A stretch of 64,000 bases of DNA from Verrucomicrobiales bacterium (lineage in GTDB: Bacteria > Verrucomicrobiota > Verrucomicrobiia > Verrucomicrobiales > DEV007): positions 5,378 to 69,377 of the forward strand of contig JAPYUT010000012.1 in the NCBI GenBank assembly GCA_029940475.1, written 5' to 3'. The notes beneath the pieces were generated by a model. It had not been told where the DNA came from. It saw only the letters and a list, made by a program, of their open reading frames with translations, and did no database searches. Positions within the stretch are counted from its first letter, which is position 1. Every line of letters begins with the position of its first letter. The position numbers and the translations under genes are program-made. Of this stretch, positions 56,488 through 64,000 are shown in pieces.

Positions 56488-58536
56488 ATGCAATTGGCTA
56501 CTATTATTTTAACGCTATCTTTTTTACTGACAACTGCCCGGGCAGTGCCCCGGGCATTGCCCGAAGGCAAGCTGCCCGCTGACAAGCGGCTTGCGCCACT
56601 CAAGGACCTCAACGGCTACTTTCCCTTCAGGCCGCCGGCATCAGGCAAAGACTGGGCGGCACGCTCCAGGCAGATCCGTCATCATTTGAAAGTTGCAGCC
56701 GGCCTCTACCCGGAACCGGATCGCACGCCACTCAATGCTGTCATCCACGGCAGGATTGCAGGCGATGGGTTCAGCGTCGAGAAGGTCTATCTCGAGAGCT
56801 TCCCGGGATTTTACCTTACCGGTAATCTCTACCGCCCGTCAGGCGGAGGGGTCACAAAACGACCTGGTATCCTGTGTCCGCACGGACACTGGAAGGACGG
56901 ACGTTTCCATGATGCGGGGGAGGCAAATATAAAAAAGCAGATTGAGCAGGGCGCCGAGGAACATCTTGAGACCGGTCGCAACCCGATCCAGGCACGCTGT
57001 GTCGGCCTTGCCCGGCTTGGCTGCACCGTCTTCCAGTATGACATGATCGGTTACTGCGACAACGACCAGATTTCCTATCACCTCGGGCACCGGTTTGCCG
57101 AGCAGCGACCCGGGATGATTTCCCCGGAGGGCTGGGGGCTCTACAGCCCGCAGGCCGAGTCACAACTGCAGAGCATCATGATGCTGCAGACCTGGAACTC
57201 AATCCGTGCGATCGACTTCATGCAGGCCCTGCCCGATGTTGACCCGGAGCGCATTGCGGTCACCGGCGCAAGCGGCGGAGGCACGCAGACCTTCGTGGTT
57301 TCCGCACTGGATCCCAGGGTCAGGGTGTCGGTTCCGGCGGTAATGGTTTCCACCGCGATGCAGGGCGGCTGCACCTGCGAGAACGCCAGCCTGATGCGCG
57401 TTGAGGAGGGTAATGTTGCCTTCGCTGCCCTGTTTGCCCCGAAGCCGCTGTGTGTCACTGCCGCTGATGACTGGACAAAGGAGATGAAAAGCAAGGGCTT
57501 CCCGGAACTCAGGAAACTTTACGCGGCCCTGGGTGTGCCGGACAACCTGATGCTGCACAACCGCACTGAGTTTGGGCATAATTACAACCTGCCATCGAGG
57601 CAGGCGATGTATCGTTGGTTCAATAAACACCTGGGTATTGGTGTCAAGAATCCTGAGCAGGAGCGGCCTCATAAGCGGTTGCAAAAAGAGCAGCTGAGCG
57701 TCTGGAACGCCAAGCACCCAAAGCCTGCTGGCGGCGAGCAGTTTGAACGCAGCTTACTGGCTGCCCTGAACGCTGATTCAGCAAAAAAGGTGGCGGCCAA
57801 CCCTGAGATTGCACGACGCGGATGGGAAGTTGTCCTGGATGCCAGCCTTGAACATGCCGGCGAGGTGGAGTGGGACCTGGTGACAAAGGACGAGCATGAC
57901 GCTTACCTGGTCATGGCCGGACTACTGAACAACACCACGTACGGCGAGCAGTCACCGGCGGTTTTTCTCTACCCGAAAGAGGGCTGGAATAAGCGCGCGG
58001 TCATTTGGCTGCATGAGGACGGCAAATCCGGCTTGTTTGATGGCGAAGAGCCACGTGCGGAGGTGAAGAAACTGCTTGCCGCCGGAAGTGCGGTGTGTGG
58101 AGTCGACCTCTTTATGCAGGGTGAGTTCCTTGCTGATGGCAAGATTTTAAGCCAAACACGCCGGGTGAAGAACACGCGCCAGTCAGCAGCCTACACCTTT
58201 GGCTACAACCGGTCACTTTTTGTGCACCGGGTGCATGATATACTGAGCCTGATAAATCTTGTCCGCACGGACAAGCATGGCGCTGCAAAGATTGACCTGA
58301 TCGGGTTGAAGGGAGCCGGCCACTGGGCTGCTGCCGCCCATTATGCTGCCCCGGGGGTTCTGGACCGCGTTGTCATTGAAACCGCGGGGTTCAAGTTTAT
58401 CAAGGTGATGGATATCCGGCATCCGGATTTTTTGCCGGGAGGGGCGAAGTATGGTGATATTGATGCATTGCTTGGGTTGGCAGAACGACCCTGCTGGCTG
58501 GTTGATGACAAGGGCTTGCCGCCCTGGTTGCAGTGA
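56488..58536 (+). CDS. Exported serine-hydrolase-like protein (acetylxylan-esterase-like)
   Basis: 682 residues with a signal peptide (about 1-19). The first half has an alpha/beta-hydrolase look: RPGILCPHGHWKDG, a nucleophile elbow VTGASGGGTQTF with Ser262, FAPKPLCVTAADDW for the acid and FGHNYN for a likely His. The second half, from about 400, repeats an alpha/beta-hydrolase-like core (RAVIWLHEDGK, LIGLKGAGHWAAAAHYA) without a clear serine. PVC genomes hold many such proteins, often labelled acetylxylan esterase; the true substrate is unknown. It precedes the 1611-residue fusion by 38 bases. Confidence 0.78.
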   Translation: MQLATIILTLSFLLTTARAVPRALPEGKLPADKRLAPLKDLNGYFPFRPPASGKDWAARSRQIRHHLKVAAGLYPEPDRTPLNAVIHGRIAGDGFSVEKVYLESFPGFYLTGNLYRPSGGGVTKRPGILCPHGHWKDGRFHDAGEANIKKQIEQGAEEHLETGRNPIQARCVGLARLGCTVFQYDMIGYCDNDQISYHLGHRFAEQRPGMISPEGWGLYSPQAESQLQSIMMLQTWNSIRAIDFMQALPDVDPERIAVTGASGGGTQTFVVSALDPRVRVSVPAVMVSTAMQGGCTCENASLMRVEEGNVAFAALFAPKPLCVTAADDWTKEMKSKGFPELRKLYAALGVPDNLMLHNRTEFGHNYNLPSRQAMYRWFNKHLGIGVKNPEQERPHKRLQKEQLSVWNAKHPKPAGGEQFERSLLAALNADSAKKVAANPEIARRGWEVVLDASLEHAGEVEWDLVTKDEHDAYLVMAGLLNNTTYGEQSPAVFLYPKEGWNKRAVIWLHEDGKSGLFDGEEPRAEVKKLLAAGSAVCGVDLFMQGEFLADGKILSQTRRVKNTRQSAAYTFGYNRSLFVHRVHDILSLINLVRTDKHGAAKIDLIGLKGAGHWAAAAHYAAPGVLDRVVIETAGFKFIKVMDIRHPDFLPGGAKYGDIDALLGLAERPCWLVDDKGLPPWLQ

Positions 58537-58574
58537 ACCCTGCTTGTCCCCGGCCTTGAAACTTTCCTTTGAAT

Positions 58575-61500
58575 ATGCGTTTAATTCCTCTGCTTTTACT
58601 GGCACTCGCAGCGGGTGCCAATGCCCAGGGCAACCGGCTTGCCTACCTTGATGCACCTTCCCCGGATCCGTATTATGTCGGGCCCGGGTTTGCCAAGTTA
58701 ACCACTCCCCGGTGGGTCGGGGAGGAAGGGGTCGAGGCGGTTGTGATCCTGTCAATTGATGACATGCGTGACAGCGCGCGTTATGAGGCTTTTCTGCGGC
58801 CGGTGCTGGACCGGCTTAAGGCAATCGATGGCCGCGCGCCGGTGAGTATTTTTACCTGCCAGGTTGATCCGCAGGACATGCGCCTGCAGAAATGGCTGGC
58901 CGAGGGGCTGAGCATCGAGGTGCATACCATTGCCCACCCGTGTCCGTTGCTCGGGGCGGGCGGATCGATTGCCGAGGCCCGGGCAACAGTGCACAACTGT
59001 ATTGACCTGCTTGCCGGTATTCCCAATACCGTTCCCAATATCTTTCGCATGCCGTGCTGTGATTCGCAGAATTCACTCAGCCCGCGGTTTTTTACCGAGA
59101 TCTTTAGCAAGCCCACGCCGGTGGGCAATTTTCTCAAGGGTGATTCCTCGGTATTTACCCTGCTGAGTACGCCGGGCAACCGTCTTGAGAAATATGTCCC
59201 CAAGCTGCGCGGCTTCGTCAATTACATAAAGGATTATCCATACCCGTATGTCATCGGCGGCAATTGCTGGGAGTTTCCATCAGTCATTCCCTCAGACTGG
59301 GAAGCGCAGGATCGCCATGGGTCAAAGAACCCTGAGACCATTAAGGATCTTAAGGCAGCCCTTGATCGCGTGGTGGAAATGCAGGGCCTTTTCACCTTTG
59401 TTTTCCATCCCCACGGCTGGATCGGCAACGATCAGGTGGTAGACCTTATCGATCATGCGGTAAAGAACCACGGCAAGAAGATCAAGTTCATGACTTTCCC
59501 GGAAGTCATAGCGCGCCTGGAGAAGAATGTCCTGGGTGGCAGGTCGCTGCGCGATGGCGTACGCCTTTTTGATGCTGACGGGGATGGCGTGCTTGAGGTG
59601 CATGACCGGGAGGAGAGTGTTGCCGGTGCGGTTTTTGGAAGCGCCCCGCCGATCTCCGGGCGCTTGCTTGATATTGACGGTGATGGGCAACCCGAATCGG
59701 TAACGGCAACCTCGATTTTCGGGTTCAATGACGGCAAATGGTCGCGCTGGCCTGTGAAGGTTCCCGATGCTGTTCGTCCCCGGGAGACGGCAACGCGCTT
59801 TGCCGACCTTGATGGTGATGGTGACCTGGACATCATTGTTGCCACCCATGACCAGCAGTTTATTTTCCGCTTTGAATCCAGGAAGGCCGGCTGGGTGAAG
59901 CATTTTGGCGGGCAGCGCAAATCCTTTGGTGAAGCGCTGCAGATTCCGCCCTTTGTCCGCAAGGACGGCAGCAACAACGGCGCATGGATTGCGCAGGGGC
60001 GGGTTTTCTGGCAGAACGAGGATGTCGGCCGCGGGCAATCACAGATTATCAGGCGCTCGTTCAGCGAACTGATGAAAATGACCGGGACAGGGGCCGGGAA
60101 TCCGATGAAAGCGCAAGACTCGCTGCGGGTAATGCAGCCGCGGAAGGGATTCCGTGTTGAACTTGTGGCAGCTGAACCCCTGGTGATGGACCCGGTGGAT
60201 ATTGCATGGGGGCCGGATGGGCGCATGTGGGTGGCGGAAATGGCCGATTATCCCATGGGCATTGACAACAAGGGCAAGGCCGGCTCCCGCATCGCGGTGT
60301 TGAGCGATACCGACGGCGATGGTCATTATGATGAGCGTTGCCTCTTCGCGACGGGACTGGAAACTGCCAACACGGTATTGCCATGGCGTGACGGGGTGCT
60401 GGTAGTTGCTCCTCCCGACATTCTTTTCATGCGCGATACCGATCAAGACGGCCGTGCGGACGAGAAAAGGATACTCTATGAGGGTTTCGGCCGGGGCAAT
60501 GAACAGCATCGGGGAAATGGCCTGGCATGGGGGCTTGATGGGTGGCTCTATGTTGCCAACGGGGACAGTGGTGGCACCATTCGTTCGACCAGTACCGGCA
60601 AGACCCTGGATTTGGGGGGCTTCGATTTGCGCATCCGGCCTGACACGGGTGAACTTGAACCGGCTACCGGCATTACCCAGCACGGGCGCAATCGTGACGA
60701 CTGGGGGAACTGGGTCGCCGGAAACAATTCAGGAGCCTGGCACATTGCCCTGCAGGATCATTACATCCGTCGCAACCCGCAGGTCAAGCAACCCCCCGCC
60801 AGGCATTCTCTCTTTGGGGTAATGGACCTTTACCCGGCGAGTCATGTCATCAGCCATTGGAGCGGTTATAAACGGCCGCCGGCGGGGTCCGCCGGGAAAC
60901 TCACCTCCGGATGCGCTTATACCTTCTATCGTGACAACCTGTTCAATGAACTCGTCGAGCCCTCAGTGTATTTCTCCTGCCCGGTCCACAATTGCATTCA
61001 TCGTGAAGTGATCGGCTGGAACGGAGTCCTCATGCAGACCTCACGTGCTGCGGATGAGGCGCGCAGCGAATTCCTGCGCAGTGCGGACTCGTGGTTTCGT
61101 CCCACCGCTATCCGCACCGGACCCGATGGCGGGATGTATGTCGCCGACATGTACCGGCTTGTCATCGAGCACCCGAAATGGATCGATGACACCCTGGAGC
61201 GCGAGATGATTGCAGAGCACCGTCTTCGTGCCGGGCATGACCTCGGGCGCATCTACAGGATCCTCCCGGGCAATGTCCCTGCCCAAAGGCCGATAAATCT
61301 TGCTTCATTGTCGCCGGCGGCATTGGCCAGGGCTCTTGACAGCCCCAATGGATGGCTGCGTGATACCGTGCACATGATGCTCACCTGGCTGGCAGATGAC
61401 GCCAGGAAAGTGGCGGTAAAGCCTCTCCGGGATATCCTGCTTCGCAGCGCTCATGCTGCCGCCCGCGCCCAGGCCTTGAGTGTTCTTGGCAGCCTGGATG

Positions 61501-63410
61501 CGCTTTCCGCCGCTGATGTCCGGGCAGGTCTCGATGACCGCCACAGCGGGGTGAGGCGCAATGCACTGCGCGTGGCGGCTTCCCTGTTGGCTGCCGACAG
61601 CACGCTGGGGCAAAGAACCATTGCCCTGCTTAAGGATGAAGACGCCCATGTGCAAAGAGAAGCTGCCTATACCCTCGGCCTCTGGAAAAGCCCGCAGGCG
61701 GGCCGGGCCCTGGGAGAATTTCTGCTGCAGCACGCTGCGCAGCCATACCTGCGCGCTGCGGCGCTTAGCTCTGCCGTCCATGTTGCTGATGAAGTTCTCC
61801 TGTCCGTAATGGCGGCAGAACGCACTCCCGGCAGTGCAGCGCTCAGCGGGGAATTGATAAGCATGCTGGGTGAGGATGGCCGGGAATTGCTACCGTTGAT
61901 CCTGGCAAAGATCACCGTGAAGGCTCAAGCAGGTAAAGAATATGAAACCTGGAAACTGAGCACCGCCGCCCGTCTCCTTGCCGCCTTCCACAACGACAAG
62001 AGCCTGTATCATCAATTGACTCCCATGCTGGATGCCGCACGCGCAATTATCAGCAACAACAGTGAATTGCCGGGCAGGCGCCTTGCGGCAATTGAGCTCC
62101 TGGCACAGGCCACGGAGAACCCTGAGGCTGACATGCCTCGGTATATGTCCCTGCTGCAGGTCTCCTCACCGATTGAGCTGCAGGTTGCCGCGCTGCAGCC
62201 TGTCTTGAAACGGGGCAACCCTGCGATCATCCTGCAACTGCTTGAGGGTTGGCCTGGTTACAGCCCTGTCCTGCGCTCAGGCATTATTGATGCCATGCTC
62301 TCGCGCAGCGAATTGACCCGGCACCTGCTCTCCAATTTTCCCGGCAATCCCGAGTTATTGGCTTCACTTGATGTTTCCCGCCGACAACTTCTCCTTCAGC
62401 ATGACGACGCAAAAATACGAAAGCTGGCGATCAAATATCTCGGCGAAGCCAGTCACCCGGATCGCGTTGCCCTCATCAAGAAATATAAACCTTCTCTTTC
62501 CGGCCAGGGCGACCGGGAAAAGGGACGCATCCTGTTTACCGGTCGTTGCGCTGCCTGTCACCGCCTTGACGGAGTGGGCAGGGAAGTGGGTCCCGATCTT
62601 GCCGCCCTGACCAACCGCAGTGACCTGGCTTACCTTACCGGCATCCTGGACCCCAATCGGGCCATTCAGCAGAATTGGATGATGTTCATTGCCAAGACAC
62701 GGGAAGGGCGCAGCTATGCGGGATCTCTGGGAGAGGAGACCAGTTCCGCGATTATCCTGATCGGGGTTGATGGCTCCCGCACCAGGATTCCCCGCTCCGG
62801 GTTGATATCGCTGAAGTCCACCGGCCGCTCACTGATGCCCGAGGGTCTGGAAGCAGCCATCAGCATCGCGGATATGGGACATTTGCTGGCTTATCTGCGC
62901 ACTACGGGGACAGAGCATAAGAACTTTGCCAACAATGAACCCAGGCCCATCAGGCAGTCCGGGGATGGCAGCCTTATTCTTCCCGCCACTGCCGCCGCGC
63001 TCTACGGGCCAAACATTGTTTTCGAGCAGAAATACCGCAATATTGGCTACTGGGGGCACGAGCAGGATCGTGCCGAGTGGGTCTTTCACCTTGATCGCGC
63101 CGGGGAATATGATCTCTGGGCAGACTGGGCTTTGAATACTGAGCGTGTTGGCGGTCGCATTCGCTTCACGGCAGCAGATCAAAGCATTGCGGCAGCGGTT
63201 CCCGGAACACGCAGCTGGGATATTTACCGCTGGGGCAGGGTTGGCCGCATGAAGTTGCCGACCGGACGACAAACGCTGGTGGCTCGCAGTGATGGGCCGG
63301 TCAAGGTGGGGGCTCTCATTGATCTTCGTCACCTGCGCTTGCTTCCCGCCGGCAGTAAAGGACCTGGAGAAGGATCCGACTGGCCTGCATTCCGGAAGGT
63401 TGAACAATGA
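58575..63410 (+). CDS. 1611-residue exported fusion: deacetylase-like, beta-propeller, HEAT-like, cytochrome c, carbohydrate-binding-like
   Basis: ATG 58575 gives a signal peptide and then, in order: a NodB/polysaccharide-deacetylase-like domain to about 310 (SIDDMRD, HTIAHPCPLL); calcium-binding-type VCBS repeats at about 330-430 (DADGDG, DIDGDG, DLDGDG); a PVC-type membrane-bound dehydrogenase beta-propeller from about 520 (ELVAAEPL, DIAWGPDGRMWVAEM, NGLAWGLDGWLYVANGD); HEAT-like helices about 910-1290; a cytochrome c site CAACH at Cys1325, Cys1328, His1329; and a beta-sandwich of carbohydrate-binding type at about 1450-1600. The last three core parts are a known PVC architecture. A deacetylase-like head on it is unusual. 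No metal-coordination test was made, so activity of the deacetylase part is unproven. Confidence 0.85.
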   Translation: MRLIPLLLLALAAGANAQGNRLAYLDAPSPDPYYVGPGFAKLTTPRWVGEEGVEAVVILSIDDMRDSARYEAFLRPVLDRLKAIDGRAPVSIFTCQVDPQDMRLQKWLAEGLSIEVHTIAHPCPLLGAGGSIAEARATVHNCIDLLAGIPNTVPNIFRMPCCDSQNSLSPRFFTEIFSKPTPVGNFLKGDSSVFTLLSTPGNRLEKYVPKLRGFVNYIKDYPYPYVIGGNCWEFPSVIPSDWEAQDRHGSKNPETIKDLKAALDRVVEMQGLFTFVFHPHGWIGNDQVVDLIDHAVKNHGKKIKFMTFPEVIARLEKNVLGGRSLRDGVRLFDADGDGVLEVHDREESVAGAVFGSAPPISGRLLDIDGDGQPESVTATSIFGFNDGKWSRWPVKVPDAVRPRETATRFADLDGDGDLDIIVATHDQQFIFRFESRKAGWVKHFGGQRKSFGEALQIPPFVRKDGSNNGAWIAQGRVFWQNEDVGRGQSQIIRRSFSELMKMTGTGAGNPMKAQDSLRVMQPRKGFRVELVAAEPLVMDPVDIAWGPDGRMWVAEMADYPMGIDNKGKAGSRIAVLSDTDGDGHYDERCLFATGLETANTVLPWRDGVLVVAPPDILFMRDTDQDGRADEKRILYEGFGRGNEQHRGNGLAWGLDGWLYVANGDSGGTIRSTSTGKTLDLGGFDLRIRPDTGELEPATGITQHGRNRDDWGNWVAGNNSGAWHIALQDHYIRRNPQVKQPPARHSLFGVMDLYPASHVISHWSGYKRPPAGSAGKLTSGCAYTFYRDNLFNELVEPSVYFSCPVHNCIHREVIGWNGVLMQTSRAADEARSEFLRSADSWFRPTAIRTGPDGGMYVADMYRLVIEHPKWIDDTLEREMIAEHRLRAGHDLGRIYRILPGNVPAQRPINLASLSPAALARALDSPNGWLRDTVHMMLTWLADDARKVAVKPLRDILLRSAHAAARAQALSVLGSLDALSAADVRAGLDDRHSGVRRNALRVAASLLAADSTLGQRTIALLKDEDAHVQREAAYTLGLWKSPQAGRALGEFLLQHAAQPYLRAAALSSAVHVADEVLLSVMAAERTPGSAALSGELISMLGEDGRELLPLILAKITVKAQAGKEYETWKLSTAARLLAAFHNDKSLYHQLTPMLDAARAIISNNSELPGRRLAAIELLAQATENPEADMPRYMSLLQVSSPIELQVAALQPVLKRGNPAIILQLLEGWPGYSPVLRSGIIDAMLSRSELTRHLLSNFPGNPELLASLDVSRRQLLLQHDDAKIRKLAIKYLGEASHPDRVALIKKYKPSLSGQGDREKGRILFTGRCAACHRLDGVGREVGPDLAALTNRSDLAYLTGILDPNRAIQQNWMMFIAKTREGRSYAGSLGEETSSAIILIGVDGSRTRIPRSGLISLKSTGRSLMPEGLEAAISIADMGHLLAYLRTTGTEHKNFANNEPRPIRQSGDGSLILPATAAALYGPNIVFEQKYRNIGYWGHEQDRAEWVFHLDRAGEYDLWADWALNTERVGGRIRFTAADQSIAAAVPGTRSWDIYRWGRVGRMKLPTGRQTLVARSDGPVKVGALIDLRHLRLLPAGSKGPGEGSDWPAFRKVEQ

Positions 63411-64000
63411 GTGATCCGGGGTCTACCGATTCAGAAAGCTTGCGGGTGCGTACTGCCGGCAAGTTTTTCCGTGCCGGCGAGGAAAAGTTTTACATCAAGG
63501 GGATTACTTATGGACCCTTTGCCCCCGGCAGGGAGGGATTTGGGCTGAAACATGGCGCAGAGCTGGATGCTGACCTGGCGAGTATTGTTGCGATGGGTGC
63601 AAATACCATTCGGCTCTACGAGTCGCCCCCTGAGGGGTTCCTTGATGTTTGTGCCGGGCATGGTCTCAGGGTGCTGGCGGGCGTTGCATGGCCGGATCAT
63701 GTGGATTTTGTCAATCAGGAGGGCCTTTGGGATTCATGCGTGGAAAAACTGCGCAAGGCCGTGACCTGCCACAGGAGGCATCCTGCCCTGCTGGGCTATT
63801 TTGTCGGCAACGAGATAAGCGCCACGATTGTTCGCTGGCTTGGACCGCGCAGGGTGAAGGTTCTGCTCGAGGAGTTGATTGACGCCGGTAGACTCGAGGA
63901 CCCGCAGGCTTTGTTTGCCTATGCCAATTATCCGTCCACGGAATACCTGAATCCTGAAAACGCCGACTTTATTTCCTATAATATTTACCTGGAAAATGAA
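63407..64000 (+). CDS. Glycoside-hydrolase-type TIM barrel protein (3' end beyond window)
   Basis: ATG 63407 overlaps the fusion gene stop (ATGA), so the two are coupled. 198 residues are visible. FYIKGITYGPFAP, ANTIRLYESP and a GYFVGNEISATIVRW segment fit a GH2/GH5-like TIM barrel, with the Glu of GNE in the acid/base position. There is no signal peptide, although the neighbours are exported. Such barrels in Verrucomicrobiota are often fused to a glycosyltransferase further on; this cannot be seen here. Confidence 0.75.
   Translation, partial: MSDPGSTDSESLRVRTAGKFFRAGEEKFYIKGITYGPFAPGREGFGLKHGAELDADLASIVAMGANTIRLYESPPEGFLDVCAGHGLRVLAGVAWPDHVDFVNQEGLWDSCVEKLRKAVTCHRRHPALLGYFVGNEISATIVRWLGPRRVKVLLEELIDAGRLEDPQALFAYANYPSTEYLNPENADFISYNIYLENE

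Follow-up and report, generated by a model that had tools for sequence, protein, structure and literature searches.

The gene under study lies at positions 58575-63410 of the window (the whole stretch of 64,000 nucleotides that was analysed), on the forward strand, as do all features described below. It encodes a chain of 1611 aa, starting with an ATG at 58575 (an in-frame TTG at 58569 is a possible alternative start) and ending with a stop codon at 63408-63410, and the frame is intact, with a signal peptide at its start. The signal peptide (residues 1-17, MRLIPLLLLALAAGANA; 58575-58625) was read from the sequence and has a putative cleavage site. It is followed along the chain by a NodB/CE4-like deacetylase domain (residues 20-342; 58632-59600), assigned from a family profile, a fold match and conserved residues; an FG-GAP/VCBS-like region (residues 343-500; 59601-60074), assigned from FG-GAP_3, the alignment and weak fold matches to repeat propellers, and longer by about 90 residues in most relatives; a DUF7133/TIGR02604 beta-propeller-like domain (residues 513-898; 60111-61268), assigned from Pfam, NCBIfam and the model; a HEAT-repeat solenoid (residues 906-1300; 61290-62474), assigned from Pfam and the model; a monoheme cytochrome c domain with one CxxCH (residues 1312-1443; 62508-62903), assigned from TIGR02603, conservation and a match to Kustd1711; and a CBM35/CBM6-like C-terminal domain (residues 1446-1600; 62910-63374), assigned by Foldseek.

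Pfam matches were obtained to DUF7133 (residues 513-898, E 3.9e-131), HEAT_2 (984-1066), FG-GAP_3 (366-422), Cytochrom_C (1315-1366) and, below threshold, Polysacc_deac_1 (54-162). The NCBIfam matches were TIGR02604 at residues 525-899 (265.7 bits, cut-off 122.2) and TIGR02603 at residues 1312-1443 (103.5 bits, cut-off 68.15). With both curated cut-offs passed, residues 513-1443 are, by profile assignment, a PVC heme-binding TIGR02604/TIGR02603 protein. The original prediction had listed a PVC dehydrogenase-HEAT-CxxCH architecture with an additional N-terminal NodB-like domain and VCBS repeats, and this domain list was right, with Polysacc_deac_1 just sub-threshold. The mean pLDDT of the models was 65 and 72, which is moderate confidence.

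The upstream neighbour (56488-58536, gap 38 nt) encodes an exported alpha/beta hydrolase (glucuronyl esterase/AXE1-like). The downstream neighbour (63407-64000) encodes a fusion of a glycosidase-like TIM barrel and a GT2 glycosyltransferase of 840 aa, which extends past the window and continues in L023:1785-4307; the TIM barrel is GH72/GH2-like. The start of the downstream gene and the stop codon of this gene overlap in ATGA, which suggests an operon. Both neighbours are syntenic in L001 and L002, the relatives that match over the full length (identity 75-79%); in other lineages the neighbours differ. Sulfatase-family genes cluster near 8 of the 45 neighbourhoods compared, and PVC cytochromes, CBMs and sulfatases had been linked in an earlier proposal (PMC5615132). 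No partner gene is conserved across the family, the only recurrent neighbours being sulfatase, Gfo/Idh/MocA, DUF1501 and PSD1. Nothing of relevance came out of scanning the locus for Rfam families and promoters.

In the heme domain, the CxxCH at residues 1325-1329 (C1325, C1328, H1329) and M1421 are kept in at least 36 of 37 rows. Judged by this conservation, M1421 is the probable axial heme ligand, and the domain is consistent with a His/Met monoheme cytochrome; among sequences with a solved structure, the diheme protein Kustd1711 of Kuenenia comes closest. In the model, residues 1446-1600 resemble CBM35 and CBM6 chains (Foldseek, target TM 0.74-0.79), in agreement with the carbohydrate-binding-like C-terminus that had been proposed. 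The type of the C-terminal domain differs among relatives.

Regarding the head, Polysacc_deac_1 scored 20.9 bits on the window protein, below the curated cut-off of 23.1, and matched 11 of 12 family members (best E 3.7e-7). The best match of the head profile in the PDB was PdaC (E 4e-4). Foldseek with the AlphaFold model of residues 20-505 placed 3rxz at the top (E 8e-6), followed by PdaC, a chitin deacetylase from an insect and further structures. Ten PDB matches had E <= 0.001, and nine of these (E 8e-6 to 7e-4) were a deacetylase or an acetyl xylan esterase, with a moderate-confidence model. The head was aligned with 12 relatives first and then in 43 rows. Motif MT1 (D62-D63, catalytic base and metal ligand; 58758-58763) reads D/D in 42 of the 43 rows, with a gap in the remaining one. 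Motif MT2 (H117-T-x-x-H121, metal ligands; 58923-58937) is kept in all 43, as are D241 of MT4 (59295-59297) and H278 of MT5 (59406-59408); in MT3 (R158-x-P160; 59046-59054) the Arg is invariant (43/43) and the Pro (40/43) is replaced by Gly in three rows. The roles of the MT1-MT5 residues are given in a NodB review, according to which Gly can stand in place of the MT3 proline in the NodB1.2 subclass and 3RXZ is one of two NodB1.2 structures listed with all five active residues kept (PMC10967932). The NodB metal triad is thus intact, and the full set of catalytic and metal residues (D62, D63, H117, H121, R158, D241 and H278) is kept in 42-43 of the 43 rows. The model groups with polysaccharide deacetylases. 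Neither a loss of the metal ligands nor another fold was found, and the deacetylase fold originally predicted for residues 20-310 stands.

Further motifs strongly conserved in the head are HTxxHPCP, FRxPCxD and YPYP, and on account of these extra motifs the head is regarded as a subgroup of its own. Three nearly invariant cysteines occur at residues 123, 142 and 161 (HPCP, CxD, PC; window 58941-59056) and possibly form a disulfide or provide an additional ligand close to the metal site. Deacetylation by the NodB head is likely, as judged from the sequence and the model. The head might instead remove acyl groups from something other than a carbohydrate, or be a NodB-fold domain with a purely structural role, given that common CE4 substrates were not turned over by some NodB1.2 proteins, that the head is distant from CE4 by sequence (20.9 against 23.1 bits), that the top fold match 3rxz is itself a putative deacetylase and that the conserved HPCP and PCxDxxN motifs are unusual. 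This is unlikely, however, as the catalytic and metal residues, dispensable in a domain with a structural role alone, are all kept across two phyla, and as the CBM-like tail and the glycan-related neighbours argue against a non-carbohydrate substrate.

A total of 42 NodB-headed ORFs were found in the fetched loci of Verrucomicrobiota and Planctomycetota, with DUF7133 in the same frame in 40 of them and the cytochrome domain in 36 of these 40; the remaining four are cut short, three of them by the end of a contig. The same domain order is therefore found in other genomes, in two phyla, and with 40 ORFs of the same layout elsewhere, chance or an assembly artefact as the source of the fusion was ruled out. 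The two unfused exceptions are a free-standing NodB-VCBS protein (L081:5933-7879, 649 aa), in a planctomycete that has the fused form too (L074), and a short ORF (L082). In one version of 2232 aa (L077:3495-10190), the NodB head and DUF7133 are separated by several hundred additional residues. According to genome searches with the head profile, nearly all carriers have one copy of the head. The profile matched in 14 of 75 genomes of the window's family (one fragment included), in 6 of 223 genomes in the order of carrier L007, in 22 of 343 genomes in the phylum to which the planctomycete carrier L009 belongs (one weak match included) and, among 338 genomes sampled across the window's phylum, in the window's own genome only.

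When non-NodB paralogues are included in a DUF7133 tree, 2 changes account for the NodB labels, compared with 14 in shuffles. The relatives L014-L016 lack a NodB head. Between the window's branch and its sister clade, the identity is 44-47% for the NodB head (window 58632-59600) and 72-78% for the propeller (window 60090-61289), and the window's head is 49-63% identical to those of all other, more distant relatives. This mismatch in sequence identity suggests either that one lineage exchanged its head or that the head evolved fast in the sister clade. A head replacement in the window's branch is not claimed, as the AU test left common descent unrejected (p 0.10).

The window's own genome contains 51 stretches matching TIGR02604. 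Four long DUF7133-heme paralogues (L024, L025, L026 and L027) have other heads, and the additions on them are laminin-G; ThuA and an isochorismatase-like domain; DMFA2_C; and a GDSL-like lipase with a rhamnosidase-type Ig domain. From these sequences, the shared propeller-HEAT-heme chassis carries several kinds of head, of which NodB is one, and head-swapping is a habit of the family. The range of heads makes the NodB fusion less surprising, yet useful. TIGR02604-type heme proteins are strongly expanded here and their function is poorly understood; the intact, recognisable active site of the head points to a concrete candidate substrate class (acetylated glycans), and the differing heads on paralogues of the same genome are a means of sorting the family by substrate.

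The propeller profile had no match among PDB sequences, even at E 10, and the Pfam GSDH matches to DUF7133 were weak; hhalign of the DUF7133 profile with the GSDH proteins of carrier genomes gave P 1.8e-5 and a probability of 78%. H645 (60507-60509), invariant in 41 of 41 rows, corresponds in the alignment to the His that is catalytic in the glucose/sorbosone dehydrogenase family and, by profile alignment, is in register with His144 of soluble glucose dehydrogenase (sGDH); the catalytic His of CcPDH is His363 (PMC6881789). The PQQ-binding Arg-Asn is absent at positions 719-720, and position 719, opposite the Arg in the alignment, holds S, P or A in each of the 41 rows. PqqC was found in none of ten carrier genomes (some of them incomplete drafts), an absence that is informative because the same search finds PqqC above the cut-off in 6 of 388 genomes of the phylum, all six being other genomes. 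Since the Arg-Asn is replaced and PqqC was not found in the ten carriers, the propeller is not classed as a PQQ enzyme, and no redox cofactor is assigned to it. As to a six-bladed propeller fold, its model is strand-rich, with part of it below pLDDT 50, and among the structure matches listed there is no PQQ propeller; the structure search of the C-terminal half was dominated by HEAT solenoids and is therefore no guide to the propeller fold. The DUF7133 domain is GSDH-like by sequence comparison, 'dehydrogenase' being a family nickname, and glycan oxidation by it is possible.

If the DUF7133 propeller hydrolysed the sugar, the protein would combine a deacetylase with a glycoside hydrolase, and the heme would serve for docking or for electron supply to an outside enzyme. 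This arrangement would fit the missing PQQ ligands and PqqC, and the Chthoniobacter-like Lac161_ORF7, a TIGR02604-HEAT_2-cytochrome c protein, is reported to hydrolyse lactose with a Km of 1.8 mM (excerpt of PMC5342196); it is a rival to be taken seriously, though an unlikely one, as this is a single report, in the excerpt without active-site mutants, and the sole weak relatives of the propeller are GSDH/NHL-type folds. Least probable is a genuine PQQ dehydrogenase on scavenged PQQ, comparable to the fungal AA12-heme-CBM pyranose dehydrogenases: the catalytic His is in register and CcPDH follows the same three-part idea of sugar oxidation, heme and CBM (excerpts of PMC6881789 and PMC4332668), but the PQQ Arg is at the aligned position in 0 of 41 rows and pqqC was not found in carriers.

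The preferred reading, with a probability of about 0.5, is an exported, modular, carbohydrate-active PVC heme-binding protein with a functional, metal-dependent CE4-like head, in which deacetylation would be followed by the action of the GSDH-like propeller. The CBM-like and FG-GAP parts would hold the glycan, and the NodB head, with its observed active-site residues, would take off acetyl groups. The GSDH-like propeller on its HEAT scaffold would act next on the sugar freed of acetyl groups, most likely oxidising it and so feeding the attached monoheme cytochrome c, with a cofactor that is probably not self-made PQQ. The head would fix the substrate class for one branch of an interchangeable-head family. 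Counted in favour are the NodB motifs, the CE4 fold, the fusion counts, the tree, H645, CxxCH/M1421 and the CBM-like tail, together with the esterase-like and glycosidase-like neighbours in the window and the sulfatase-family genes near some of the neighbourhoods. Counted against are the missing PQQ Arg-Asn, the failure to find PqqC in carriers, the relative reported to hydrolyse lactose, the lack of a family-wide partner gene and the moderate model confidence. From this evidence we infer the glycan substrate, the deacetylase activity, the order of action and the oxidation.

The original prediction went further, to a glycan being deacetylated and oxidised and its electrons passed to heme in one chain. 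Of this sequence of steps, the deacetylase head with its intact metal site was borne out, whereas the oxidation was weakened by the absent Arg-Asn and by the lack of pqqC in carriers; the 'dehydrogenase' part survives as a GSDH-like domain with the catalytic His H645 and loses the PQQ-binding pair. In the proposed oxidative breakdown of an acetylated polysaccharide, the substrate is conjectural and the oxidation is the weaker half. That a widespread PVC enzyme family removes acetyl groups from a glycan and goes on to oxidise it within a single polypeptide, with electrons passing to its own heme via a non-PQQ cofactor, is rather unlikely; if true, acetylated polysaccharides would have a new route of oxidative breakdown, and the interchangeable heads would define the substrate classes. 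The occurrence of the layout in two phyla hints at acetylated sugars as the target of a poorly understood heme-protein family.

The literature found on TIGR02604, DUF7133 or NodB in PVC cytochromes consisted of PMC5342196 and background only. Lac161_ORF7 (AGW45552), a reported beta-galactosidase that was compared by description, shares TIGR02604, HEAT_2 and cytochrome c with the window protein, but no NodB head is described for it in the excerpt (PMC5342196). The PSCyt planctomycete-specific cytochrome proteins with CBMs are likewise PVC cytochromes proposed to act on carbohydrates, often near sulfatases, but have other cytochrome domains (PSCyt1-3/PSD), with no deacetylase mentioned (PMC5615132). 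The fungal CcPDH (AA12, heme b, CBM) also has a sugar-oxidising propeller, a heme and a CBM in a single exported chain (excerpts of PMC6881789 and PMC4332668), but is without a deacetylase and has a different heme type, and its PQQ ligands are not conserved in the window family. The CE4 NodB1.2 type (3RXZ) and PdaC share with the head the five MT motifs, the fold and the Pro/Gly at the MT3 proline (PMC10967932), whereas the low sequence similarity, the extra conserved cysteines and the fusion to a heme protein set the window protein apart. The PVC TIGR02604/TIGR02603 proteins have the DUF7133-HEAT-cytochrome c part in common with residues 513-1443, with strong scores, and to this the window protein adds the N-terminal NodB domain, the FG-GAP region and the CBM-like C-terminus; the NodB-headed, CBM-tailed form is a new, widespread variant of this known architecture.
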